Shown here piece after piece: positions 12,313 to 49,165 of a stretch of 64,000 nucleotides of DNA. The number at the start of each line of letters is the position of its first letter. The stretch's first letter is position 1. A program made the translations under genes and the position numbers. Source of the stretch: Blattabacterium cuenoti (GTDB lineage: Bacteria > Bacteroidota > Bacteroidia > Flavobacteriales > Blattabacteriaceae); the NCBI RefSeq assembly GCF_014251655.1, contig NZ_CP059225.1:418028-482027 (forward strand). Reading direction: 5' to 3'. The notes beneath the pieces are model-generated. The model was not told where the DNA came from and made no database searches. It worked only from the letters and a program-made list of their open reading frames with translations.

Positions 12313-12383
12313 TAAAAAAGCTTTGATGACATAATGACATTTTATTTTTACCTTTATTTGATTCTAAAAAAAAATTAGATGTA

Positions 12384-13721
12384 ATGGAAGAAAAAAAATC
12401 AAATCAAAATTTTTATATTGAGAGTTATGGATGCCAAATGAATGTATCTGATAGTGAGATCGTTACTTCTATATTATTAAAAAACGGATATTTTTTATCT
12501 CAAGATTTAAAAAAAGCAAACATTATATTATTAAATTCTTGTTCTATACGAGAAAAAGCAGAATTAACTATCAAAAAAAGACTAGAACAATTAGAATTTC
12601 TTAAAAAAAAGAAAAAAATTATGTTTGGAATTATAGGTTGTTTTTCTAAACAAATGGAAAATTTTCTTATAGAAGAAAAAAAAGTAGATTTTATAGTAAA
12701 TCCTAATTCTTATAAAGAAATATCTAATATCATTTATCATGCAAAAATAGGAAAAAGATACTTATATGCTATAAATAGAAATGAAACATATGAAAATATA
12801 AAACCATTTCATATAAATGAAAATAAAGTAACAACTTTTTTAAGTATAACACGAGGATGTAATAATATGTGTACATTCTGCATAGTTCCTTTCACTAGAG
12901 GAAGAGAAAAAAGTAGTAGTCCAAATTCTATAATAGAAAAATGCAAACGTTTATATAAAAATGGATATAAAGAAGTGACTCTATTAGGTCAAAATGTTGA
13001 TTCCTACCAATGGACAGAAAATTTCAATATGAAAAAAAATATAGATTTTTCTGATCTTTTAAATCTTATAGCTAAAGAAAACCCTTTCCTAAGAATTAGA
13101 TTTTCTACATCTAATCCTCATGATATGTCAGATAAAGTATTGAAAGTAATTTCTAAAAATCCCAACATTTGTAAACATATTCATCTTCCTGTACAATCCG
13201 GAAGTAATAAAATATTAAAATTAATGAATAGAAAGTATACCCGTGAAGAATATCTTATTTTAATAAAAAAAATTAGAACTATAATTCCTGAATGCTCTAT
13301 TTCTCATGATATTATGACCGGTTTTTGTAACGAAGAAGAAAGCGACCACCAAGAGACTATCAGTTTAATGAATGAAGTAAAATATGATTACGGTTATATG
13401 TTTTTCTATTCTCCTAGACCCGGAACTTATGCATATAAAAAATTAGAAGATAACGTTCCTATCAATATAAAAAAAAAGCGATTAAAAGAAATTATTAATT
13501 TACAAAAAAATCATTCATACTTAAGAATGAAAAAACATTTAGGAAATGTAGAAGAAATTTTAATTGAAGGAAAATCGAAAAGAAATGATCAATATTGGTA
13601 CGGAAGAAATACACAGAATATTATTGTTGTTTTTCCAAAAAAATCTTCTAAAATAGGAGAATTAGTTCATGTAAAAATAATAAAAAATACATCTGCAACT
13701 TTAATAGGTTTAATTTGTTAA
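12384..13721 (+). CDS. miaB: tRNA-2-methylthio-N6-dimethylallyladenosine synthase
   Basis: Radical SAM enzyme that methylthiolates i6A37 in tRNA. The precursor base is made by MiaA, also encoded in this window. The N-terminal UPF0004 domain has three Cys that hold the auxiliary cluster (C17, C53, C86). The radical SAM cluster is RGCNNMCTFC (C159, C163, C166). A C-terminal TRAM domain occupies about 375-445. It is followed after 19 bases by the sigma-54 activator, probably as one transcript. Confidence 0.95.
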   Translation: MEEKKSNQNFYIESYGCQMNVSDSEIVTSILLKNGYFLSQDLKKANIILLNSCSIREKAELTIKKRLEQLEFLKKKKKIMFGIIGCFSKQMENFLIEEKKVDFIVNPNSYKEISNIIYHAKIGKRYLYAINRNETYENIKPFHINENKVTTFLSITRGCNNMCTFCIVPFTRGREKSSSPNSIIEKCKRLYKNGYKEVTLLGQNVDSYQWTENFNMKKNIDFSDLLNLIAKENPFLRIRFSTSNPHDMSDKVLKVISKNPNICKHIHLPVQSGSNKILKLMNRKYTREEYLILIKKIRTIIPECSISHDIMTGFCNEEESDHQETISLMNEVKYDYGYMFFYSPRPGTYAYKKLEDNVPINIKKKRLKEIINLQKNHSYLRMKKHLGNVEEILIEGKSKRNDQYWYGRNTQNIIVVFPKKSSKIGELVHVKIIKNTSATLIGLIC

Positions 13722-13740: not shown

Positions 13741-14988
13741 ATGGAGTCTATCCAAAATATAAAACAAAAATTTGGAATCATTGGATATGATTATACTTTA
13801 CAAAGAGCATTAGAAAAAGCTATACAAGTCGCCCCTACCGATATTTCTGTTTTAGTTCTTGGAGAAAGCGGAGTAGGAAAAGAATTTATTCCAAAAATTA
13901 TTCATCAATTTTCTTGTAGAAAACACCATTCTTATATTGCTGTTAATTGTGGAGCTATTCCGGAAGGAACTATAGATAGTGAACTCTTTGGACACGAAAA
14001 AGGATCTTTTACAGGAGCTACTAGTATGCGAAAAGGTTATTTTGAAGGAGCAAATGGTGGAACTATTTTTTTAGATGAAGTAGGAGAACTTCCATTAACT
14101 ACACAAGTACGTCTTCTTAGAATTTTAGAATCTGGAGAATTTATTAAAGTTGGATCTTCTAAAATTCAAAAAACCAATATACGAGTTGTTGCAGCTACTA
14201 ATTTAAATATGATAGAATCTATACAAAAAGGAAAATTTAGAGAAGATTTATATTATCGTCTTAATACAGTACAAATTAATGTCCCTCCTTTACGTTATCG
14301 TAAAAATGATATCCAATTTTTATTCAAAAAATTTTCCAATGATTTTGCAGAAAAATACCATATGCCTCCTATTAGACTTACTAAAGAGTCTTTAAAATAT
14401 TTAGAAAACTATTCTTGGCCTGGTAATATTAGGCAATTAAAAAATATGACAGAACAAATTGCTGTTGTAGAAACAAAACGGGAAATTTGTGTAGATAAAT
14501 TAAAAGAATACATTCCAGATAATCTTCCCTCAATATCTTTTTCTCATTCTTCTTTTCATGATTTCTCCAAAGAAAGAGATTTTATTTATAAAATTTTATT
14601 TGATATGAAAGAAAATTTTAATAATTTAAAAAATATTACTTTACAATTAATAAAAAACCGTTTTGATCCCAGATTTTTTGAAAAAAACCAACAACTTATG
14701 GAAAAAGTTTTCGGTAAAATAATCCATAATAACAATAGAGATAATTCCATTTTTCAATTAGAAGATTTTTCCAAATTATCTTTAAATGAAAATTTAGATT
14801 ATGAATATGAAGAAGTAGAAGAAGATTCTTTAAAAAATGAATTACCTTCTTTTTCTTTACAAAAAAAAGAAATAGAATTTATTCAAAAAACTCTGAAAAA
14901 AAATAATGGAAAAAGAAAAAAAACAGCAAAAGAATTGGGAATTTCAGAACGAACATTATATAGAAAAATAAAACAGTATGGTTTATAA
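13741..14988 (+). CDS. Sigma-54-dependent transcriptional activator without receiver domain
   Basis: NtrC-class AAA+ enhancer-binding protein that would remodel the RNA polymerase-sigma54 closed complex. The protein begins almost directly with the AAA+ domain: Walker A GESGVGKE (41-48), the sigma-54 contact loop as GSFTGA (88-93, G-S in place of G-A), Walker B GTIFLDEV (about 108-115), and FREDLYYRLN in the arginine-finger region. A Fis-type helix-turn-helix ends the protein (KKTAKELGISERTLYRKIKQ). There is no receiver, GAF or PAS domain, so it may be constitutively active or controlled by its abundance. The same gene order (miaB, activator, lptE, secG) occurs in Flavobacteria. RpoN itself is not in this window. 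Confidence 0.92.
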   Translation: MESIQNIKQKFGIIGYDYTLQRALEKAIQVAPTDISVLVLGESGVGKEFIPKIIHQFSCRKHHSYIAVNCGAIPEGTIDSELFGHEKGSFTGATSMRKGYFEGANGGTIFLDEVGELPLTTQVRLLRILESGEFIKVGSSKIQKTNIRVVAATNLNMIESIQKGKFREDLYYRLNTVQINVPPLRYRKNDIQFLFKKFSNDFAEKYHMPPIRLTKESLKYLENYSWPGNIRQLKNMTEQIAVVETKREICVDKLKEYIPDNLPSISFSHSSFHDFSKERDFIYKILFDMKENFNNLKNITLQLIKNRFDPRFFEKNQQLMEKVFGKIIHNNNRDNSIFQLEDFSKLSLNENLDYEYEEVEEDSLKNELPSFSLQKKEIEFIQKTLKKNNGKRKKTAKELGISERTLYRKIKQYGL

Positions 14989-15456
14989 AAAAATTTTTTT
15001 TTATTCATTTTCTTATTTTTTGTAAATTGTTATCATCCATCTATTCCTTCATTTTTTAATACAAAAAAAACAATAGAAATAGGTAATTTTTCAGAAAAAA
15101 TAAATCTACCAAGAAGATCTATTGCTTTTGATTTTAAGAAATATCTTGAAGATTACATTATGAAGCATAGTCCTTCTAATTTAGTATTAAAAAATGGAGA
15201 TATCCTTGTTGAAGGAATATTTTTAGATTATGCAATTATTCCTACAAATAATTATCCATTAAAAAAAATTAAAATAACAGCTAAAATATATTATATAGAT
15301 AATTTTAATCCTAAAAAAAATTGGGAAGAATGCTTTATAGTTTCAGAAGAATTCTATCACAAAAAAAATTTCTTTTTAAAAGAAACTTTTGATAAGGTTA
15401 TTGAAAAACTAACAATACAAGTATATAAAAAAATATTTATTGATAATAATAAGTGA
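14978..15456 (+). CDS. lptE: LptE-family LPS-assembly lipoprotein, frameshifted in an A7T9 tract
   Basis: LptE plugs the LptD barrel that delivers LPS to the cell surface. The body of the protein is open from 14989 to the stop at 15456. It has no start codon ahead of its apparent signal-peptide end LFFVNC, a lipobox-like Cys. ATG at 14978, overlapping the activator stop by 11 bases, opens another frame as M-V-Y-K-K-I-F-F. That frame enters an A7 (14987-14993) T9 (14994-15002) tract. Adding one base in the tract joins the two frames into MVYKKIFFLFIFLFFVNC, a good lipoprotein signal. The gene is therefore either rescued by slippage or newly inactivated. The family assignment rests partly on its place between the activator and secG. 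Confidence 0.72.
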
Positions 15457-15466
15457 TCAAAAAAAT

Positions 15467-15709
15467 ATGGAAGATTTATTTATAACTATATTCGGATTTT
15501 TTATTATTATAACATGTTTTCTACTTATGTTAATTATTTTAATACAAAATCCTAAAAAAGAAAGTATTCATCATACTTTTATGGAAAAAGATTTTAGATT
15601 TTTTGGAGTAAAAAGAACAAATACTTTTCTTGAAAATATAACTTGGTTTTTATCTGCAGTTATATTTCTTCTAACTTTATTTTTCAATCTAATATTAAAA
15701 TCAAAATAA
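15467..15709 (+). CDS. secG: Preprotein translocase subunit SecG
   Basis: Small accessory subunit of the SecYEG translocon. The 80 residues hold two membrane segments (about 4-24 and 56-76) around a polar loop. The first is followed by ILIQNPK, the typical SecG end of helix 1. The open frame begins at a TTG at 15440, but ATG 15467 gives the expected N-terminus MEDLFITIFG. It overlaps nothing and lies 10 bases after lptE. Confidence 0.88.
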   Translation: MEDLFITIFGFFIIITCFLLMLIILIQNPKKESIHHTFMEKDFRFFGVKRTNTFLENITWFLSAVIFLLTLFFNLILKSK

Positions 15710-15736
15710 TAAAATGAATATTTTCTGCCATATTGA

Positions 15737-15756
15737 CATTTAACATTACTTAAATG
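15737..15756 (+). promoter_or_regulatory. Palindrome upstream of the groES promoter, possible activator-binding site
   Basis: CATTTAA (15737-15743) and TTAAATG (15750-15756) are perfect inverted copies separated by six bases. The site is about 25-45 bases upstream of the -24 element. Dimeric Fis-type HTH domains of sigma-54 activators bind such palindromes, so it is a candidate enhancer for the activator encoded at 13741. In AT-rich DNA a chance palindrome remains possible. Confidence 0.4.
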
Positions 15757-15780
15757 AAAAAAATTCAATTATTTCTCATT

Positions 15781-15796
15781 TGGCATGTTTTTGGCT
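15781..15796 (+). promoter_or_regulatory. Candidate sigma-54 (-24/-12) promoter of groESL
   Basis: TGGCATG (15781-15787), four bases, then TGGCT (15792-15796) fits the consensus TGGCACG-N4-TTGCW. The invariant GG and GC are present and spaced exactly right, with one mismatch in each half. GC-containing words are rare in these AT-rich gaps, so the match stands out. Transcription would start near 15807, leaving about 26 bases before the groES ATG. A TTGACA at 15733 has no convincing partner, and no TTTG / TAnnTTTG pair with normal spacing is present. Confidence 0.6.
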
Positions 15797-15833
15797 TTGA
15801 ACGGGTAGTATCGTTAACCTTAAAATTTATAAT

Positions 15834-17787
<1,954 letters not shown>

Positions 17788-49081: not shown

Positions 49082-49165
49082 TGGGAAGAGCAGGATTCGA
49101 ACCTGCGAAGGCCATGCCAACAGATTTACAGTCTGTCCTCGTTAACCAAACTTGAGTATCTTCCC
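49082..49165 (-). tRNA. tRNA-Tyr (GUA)
   Basis: Class II tRNA of 84 bases with a long variable arm. Acceptor GGGAAGA/TCTTCCC, discriminator A, anticodon stem ACAGA/TCTGT with loop CTGTAAA (anticodon GTA), and T-arm GCAGGTTCGAATCCTGC. Confidence 0.96.

Follow-up and report, generated by a model that had tools for sequence, protein, structure and literature searches.

A predicted sigma-54 promoter and activator site at groESL of Blattabacterium cuenoti, and the reduced chaperone regulon to which they may belong

Insect endosymbionts contain much GroEL and few regulators, and what drives the chaperonin is usually unknown. At the groESL locus of Blattabacterium cuenoti, the question is which signal starts transcription and which proteins read it. 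The locus was analysed in a window of 64,000 nucleotides (the whole stretch of DNA under study), which lies in a genome consisting of a single contig of 621,203 bases. The original prediction placed a sigma-54 promoter before groES and a palindrome where an activator dimer could bind, and envisaged a minimal local circuit running from activator to RpoN to groESL.

Walczuchella, Uzinura and Blattabacterium keep RpoD together with RpoN, which is unusual among insect endosymbionts (PMC3971599, from the part available). Sigma-54 control of flavobacterial chaperones is already in print, and the promoter type is known (available parts of PMC9723704 and PMC12316311). In F. psychrophilum, mapped 5' ends are associated with a sigma-54 motif (SM4) at groESL, dnaK, grpE-dnaJ, lon, htpG, skp and clpB (PMC9723704), and a 2025 survey of sigma-54 reports GroES, GroEL, DnaK, DnaJ and GrpE as enriched targets in Bacteroidota, most highly in Flavobacteriia (PMC12316311). 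The survey is a scoring-matrix prediction over many genomes, and the part of it available does not treat insect symbionts, an activator site or phasing (PMC12316311). In the open-access literature searched, with subscription journals largely outside it, we met no statement on the dyad described below, on its phasing or on a collapse of the regulon to chaperones in these symbionts.

The -24/-12 element upstream of groES

The features at the promoter are the following.

15440 to 15709, plus strand: secG (PF03840, TIGR00810)
15781 to 15796, plus strand: candidate sigma-54 -24/-12 element of groESL, TGGCATGTTTTTGGCT, from word score, genome uniqueness and genus conservation
15834 to 16112, plus strand: groES (PF00166)
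16144 to 17787, plus strand: groEL (PF00118; TIGR02348 over cut-off)

The consensus of sigma-54 promoters, TGGCAYG-N4-TTGCW, contains a GG (-24) and a GC (-12) separated by 10 bases. In TGGCATGTTTTTGGCT the GG occupies 15782-83 and the GC 15794-95, and 37 bases separate the end of the element from the groES ATG (15834). The word of the type TGGCATG-N4-TGGCT that had been predicted here is thus present, and it exceeds chance: of the 815 GG-N10-GC words that the 621 kb genome contains, it alone reaches the full score of 14.8, and 0 of 12 simulated genomes of matched dinucleotide make-up contained a full-score word. Within the 64 kb window the exact word occurs once, and allowing up to one mismatch yields two matches against 0.15 expected, the second of which (49104-49119, minus strand) lies inside a tRNA.

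The -24/-12 GG and GC, whose conservation in related strains was to be checked, are kept as a GG-N10-GC core at groES in 49/49 genomes of the genus (three read by hand). The exact 16-mer TGGCATGTTTTTGGCT stands at groES in 45/49, and the 15-mer TGGCATGTTTTTGGC has exactly one copy per genome in 46/49; the genomes are interrelated, and these counts are not independent. The variants comprise TGGCATGTTTTTGGCA, TGGCACATTTTTGGCA in genome G045, TGGCATATTTTTAGCT in G052 and TGGTATGTTATTAGCT in G048, where the core is degenerate.

A usable TTTG/TAnnTTTG pair near groES, whose absence the original prediction noted, was likewise not found when one spacing was searched with one mismatch allowed; a sigma-70-like pair (9/12) at 15797-15826 does not exceed chance (2 in the stretch against 1.6 expected). 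The start signal of groESL looks like a genuine sigma-54 promoter, and transcription is predicted to begin near 15807 from the usual 12-base offset.

Just past this predicted start, at 15797-15818, an inverted repeat (AACGAT..ATCGTT) appears in the groES leader of some relatives, though not all. In a Blattabacterium genome, a 33-base stretch upstream of GroEL was left uncovered by pyrosequencing, probably owing to secondary structure (PMC2768785, from the part available).

The sigma factor, its activator and the upstream dyad

A sigma-54 promoter for groESL presupposes both the sigma factor and an activator. The rpoN gene, whose presence in the complete genome had been named as a check, is there and intact, as one match (E 4e-48) in an open frame of 490 aa that carries the motif ARRTIAKYRDQ; rpoN is found in 49/49 genomes of the genus and is open in all. 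The second component lies upstream of secG.

12384 to 13721, plus strand: miaB, next to the activator gene on its upstream side (TIGR01574 over cut-off)
13741 to 14988, plus strand: sigma-54 activator, a bacterial enhancer-binding protein (PF00158, PF25601, PF02954)
15160 to 15456, plus strand: small ORF, LptE-like by position only, with no Pfam match; the name rests on synteny with the F. psychrophilum table in the available part of PMC9723704

The activator gene is, as predicted, the third gene upstream of groES and shares its strand. Its product comprises an AAA+ domain whose GAFTGA-type loop reads GSFTGA, a lid, a conserved linker with the motif ERxxxYKxLF after the lid, and a Fis-type helix-turn-helix. 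Enhancer-binding proteins of the NorR/NifA/NtrC type have a GAFTGA-type AAA+ domain and a Fis-type helix-turn-helix, and they bind an upstream site on one face of the helix. The window protein resembles them in its AAA+ loop, its helix-turn-helix and a predicted upstream site on one helix face, but differs in the absence of an N-terminal sensor or receiver domain and in the dyad TGnCA-N3-TGnCA. A search for such an N-terminal domain gave no match, with Sigma54_activat beginning at residue 13; an NtrC-type response regulator, which would have a receiver domain, was rejected as its identity. All its matches to NorR/NifA/NtrC-type families fall below curated cut-offs, and no named equivalog fits.

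There is one strong PF00158 gene per genome in 49/49 genomes of the genus, open in all, and the gene at 13741-14988 is the sole strong sigma-54 activator gene of its genome, as suits the likely partner of the groESL promoter that it had been taken to be. Weak PF00158 matches (up to 42 bits among the matches listed) fall in long frames, mostly of 700-930 aa, which we infer to encode ClpB/FtsH-like AAA+ proteins; PF00158 matches also occur in 14/14 control genomes. With element, intact rpoN and activator all in place, the case for a sigma-54 promoter at groESL appears well supported.

Among the best 80 of 588 free-living groES loci, an activator orthologue precedes groES on the same strand in 29/80, counted within the upstream stretch available per locus. 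An alignment of 23 of these 29 with the window protein (24 sequences) gives identities of 53-64% to the latter, and the recognition helix LGISERTLYRKIK is invariant in all 24.

Where this protein might bind is suggested by a dyad upstream of the element.

15726 to 15738, no strand: proposed activator-binding dyad, TGCCATATTGACA / TGTCATAATGACA, of class TGnCA-N3-TGnCA, from genus conservation and genome copies
15737 to 15756, no strand: palindrome of the original prediction, 7-6-7, 20 bases, overlapping the end of the dyad; exact in the window
12327 to 12339 (genome 430354), no strand: another TGnCA-N3-TGnCA dyad, TGACATAATGACA, 45 bases upstream of the ATG of miaB

The groES dyad is exact in 45/49 genomes of the genus, has one mismatch in 3 and is lost in G048. 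The 621 kb genome holds 4 copies of the class against 1.2 expected, upstream of groES, grpE and miaB and, for the fourth, elsewhere at 348402; over the 49 genomes, table sums give 170 forward matches against 32 for a reversed control pattern. Across the genus, dyad and -24 are separated by 25, 45-48 or 55-59 bases at groES; at grpE the spacing is 24-26 or 34 bases. These values differ by steps of about one helical turn and would place the dyad in helical register with -24, as expected of an upstream activator site.

The palindrome at 15737-15756 is exact in the sequence, but as a site for an activator dimer it compares poorly with the dyad: its exact word recurs in 9/49 genomes of the genus, and any perfect 7-6-7 inverted repeat at its place in 11/48. 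A perfect repeat of this kind lies somewhere in the 60 bases before -24 in 22/49 genomes against 2% of letter shuffles, many of these repeats being pairs of A-runs and T-runs nearer -24. The palindrome was accordingly rejected as the main activator site for want of conservation, though it is beyond pure chance, and some members of the genus may retain an additional site at its position. In G006 and G049, both arms of the perfect repeat at this place have changed in a matching way.

Upstream of miaB, where 18 of 37 loci tried could be read and one proved incomplete, the dyad is present in 13 of the 17 genomes counted. No -24/-12 element is visible near it, and it is possibly an autoregulation site of the miaB-activator operon.

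Extent and distribution of the predicted regulon

The whole genome was scanned for TGGCA-N8-G, considering the words outside ORFs of at least 90 aa and requiring the exact -24 word; a narrower scan that demands GC at -12 misses the dnaK site. Of 39 words, 8 lie outside such ORFs: 2 in the 16S rRNA gene, 2 within tRNA genes or at their margins, 1 inside an open frame of 128 codons (RsfS-like by our reading), and the remaining 3 upstream of groES, dnaK and grpE-dnaJ. For htpG, lon, clpB and skp the result is that of this exact-word scan, made by word and not gene by gene, in which no further gene-upstream TGGCA-N8-G appears in the genome.

At dnaK, TGGCATAAT[G/C]ATTG stands upstream in 49/49 genomes of the genus, with TTGG, TTGA or TTGT rather than GC at -12, and the dyad is one letter off the class, mostly as TGACTTTTTGTCA, in 48/49. 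The grpE site has GC at -12 and is found in 42/49 genomes, having been lost in 7; its dyad is present within one mismatch in 41 of the 42. Sigma-54 sites thus accompany groESL, dnaK and grpE-dnaJ alike, as in a flavobacterial protein-quality regulon. F. psychrophilum likewise has -24/-12 signals at groES-groEL, dnaK and grpE-dnaJ and a sigma-54 regulator gene beside lptE near groESL, but its sigma-54 activators are predicted to number three and its regulon is wider, taking in gliding motility, against one activator and three operons here; the available part of that account names no activator site, for which the dyad is proposed here (PMC9723704).

Nineteen further genomes of the family outside the genus comprise 6 with rpoN and 13 without. 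A strong groES site is present in 4/6 of the rpoN-bearing genomes (G064, G065, G068 and G080; 0/300 shuffles as good). In G081 (263,431 bases) the site is weakened by eye, with TGGCAT kept and -12 lost, and the Walczuchella-like G082 keeps rpoN and the activator with no recognisable groES site, while a dnaK site and a dyad are present. Upstream of dnaK, TGGCA is found in 4/6 rpoN-bearing genomes (G065, G068, G081 and G082), and in G064 and G080 the word is one letter off by eye. Among genomes lacking rpoN, 0/13 have TGGCA within 220 bases of dnaK, and of those with a groES match 0/11 have a groES site above 8.9 of 14.8. A strict co-loss of groES site and rpoN is not upheld, since G081 and G082 keep rpoN with the site damaged or unrecognisable; the co-loss holds better at dnaK than at groES. 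G066 has no activator gene between miaB and secG.

An activator-like gene in G067, which lacks rpoN, was considered as a counterexample and rejected, as it lies on a phage-like contig (C1) away from the miaB-groES locus. This contig of 19,636 bases (L285 1-16100 / L084) encodes an ATP-dependent DNA ligase, a DNA polymerase exonuclease-type protein and its own sigma-54-activator-like ATPase with SFTGA, and L285 holds 5 sigma-54-type words (TGGCAC...TGC) on both strands. It is perhaps a phage of another, sigma-54-bearing host.

In free-living Bacteroidota, TGGCAY stands 35-130 bases before the start of the groES match in 72/80 loci (best 80 of 588) against 277/6861 control windows, and is absent in 8/80; in the 72, -12 reads GA in 39 and GC in 23. 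Around these 72 loci, from the same best 80 of 588, the 21.6 kb upstream contain 31 exact dyads, compared with 25 in 641 kb of other sequence, and 30 of the 72 carry an exact dyad within 180 bp. At a period of 10.5 bp, and within the same best 80 of 588, the distances from dyad to -24 are strongly phased (n=30, R=0.73, p ~1e-7; 0/100,000 random sets as high), and remain so with one entry per distinct dyad word (n=23, p ~8e-6) or with distinct distances alone (n=20, p ~1e-4), whereas measured to the ATG the phase gives R=0.19. The Blattabacterium distances fit the phase predicted from this free-living set (V 0.73, n=12 distinct values, u=3.6). Phasing at dnaK is weaker (u=2.9; 20 distinct distances, R=0.55). 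In two free-living loci (L028 and L030), a terminator-like hairpin and T run are seen by eye between secG and groES.

Since the dyad and a phased -24 recur before groES in free-living Bacteroidota, the predicted sigma-54 promoter of groESL is inherited, in an arrangement common to that group. A groESL-only circuit particular to the symbiont is ruled out both by this arrangement and by the sigma-54 signals at dnaK and grpE-dnaJ. Of the original interpretation, then, the sigma-54 promoter, rpoN and the activator as likely partner hold, whereas the palindrome as main binding site and the local circuit do not.

Proposed mechanism and its alternatives

Judged from sequence, it is very probable that sigma-54 polymerase at 15781-15796 drives groESL with the activator working through the dyad, as part of a three-operon chaperone remnant. 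RNA polymerase with sigma-54 would transcribe groESL from this element, and the single activator (13741-14988) would bind TGnCA-N3-TGnCA, an assignment made from co-occurrence. From 24-120 bp before -24, at distances changing by steps of about one helical turn, the bound activator would contact the closed sigma-54 complex on the matching face of the DNA, and its AAA+ ATPase would open that complex through the GSFTGA loop. As there is no N-terminal sensor domain, the activator may be always on, giving a steady high output of chaperones, or may be kept in check, either by way of the conserved linker or by some partner, for instance free chaperone. Sigma-54 would here act as a sigma factor for chaperones, its three target operons being what is left of the larger protein-quality regulon reported for free-living flavobacteria.

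A possible though less likely alternative is that the sigma-54 promoter is secondary, most groESL message coming from read-through of miaB-activator-secG or from an unrecognised sigma-A promoter. No terminator-like site lies in the 124-base gap between secG and groES in the window, and sigma-A promoters can be hidden by AT-rich DNA; however, the sigma-54 word and the dyad are fixed while the flanking bases drift, so that their loss seems costly, and the signals also occur at dnaK and grpE, where that upstream operon is absent.

It is unlikely that the dyad serves another protein, such as a repressor or nucleoid protein, with the activator working through another sequence or none. Activation by enhancer-binding proteins does not always require a specific site, the link between dyad and activator is one of co-occurrence, and the copy of the dyad upstream of miaB has no visible -24/-12 beside it, as could be the case for a repressor site; yet an activator site at miaB could equally serve autorepression, the recognition helix is invariant, and the distance from dyad to -24 tracks the helical repeat across the phylum, as expected for a partner of polymerase at -24. 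It is highly improbable that the -24/-12 word has no function in the symbiont and survives as a relic or arose by chance: decay is ongoing, with damaged sites in G048, G081 and G082, but the exact 16-mer persists in 45/49 genomes, rpoN and activator are open in 49/49, and no other word in the genome reaches full score.

What these results most probably describe is a sigma-54 chaperone regulon that was inherited and has shrunk to three operons and a single activator. On balance, we favour the wider reading that in these symbionts sigma-54 now serves as a sigma factor dedicated to chaperones, a functional counterpart of the enterobacterial heat-shock sigma factor, genome reduction having spared rpoN and one sensor-less activator for the sake of groESL, dnaK and grpE-dnaJ, with the sites lost where rpoN is lost, and the dyad in register with -24 phylum-wide. 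A chaperone role would then be a reason why rpoN survives in regulator-poor genomes, where the available part of an earlier account suggested a nitrogen role; the sites found here point to chaperones (PMC3971599). Given the phylum-wide helical register, this regulation would be readable from sequence in thousands of genomes, and the phased dyad would offer a sequence signature for chaperone control in Bacteroidota, where heat-shock circuitry is poorly known. For the symbionts themselves, it would provide a concrete and testable wiring of one sigma factor, one activator and three chaperone operons.
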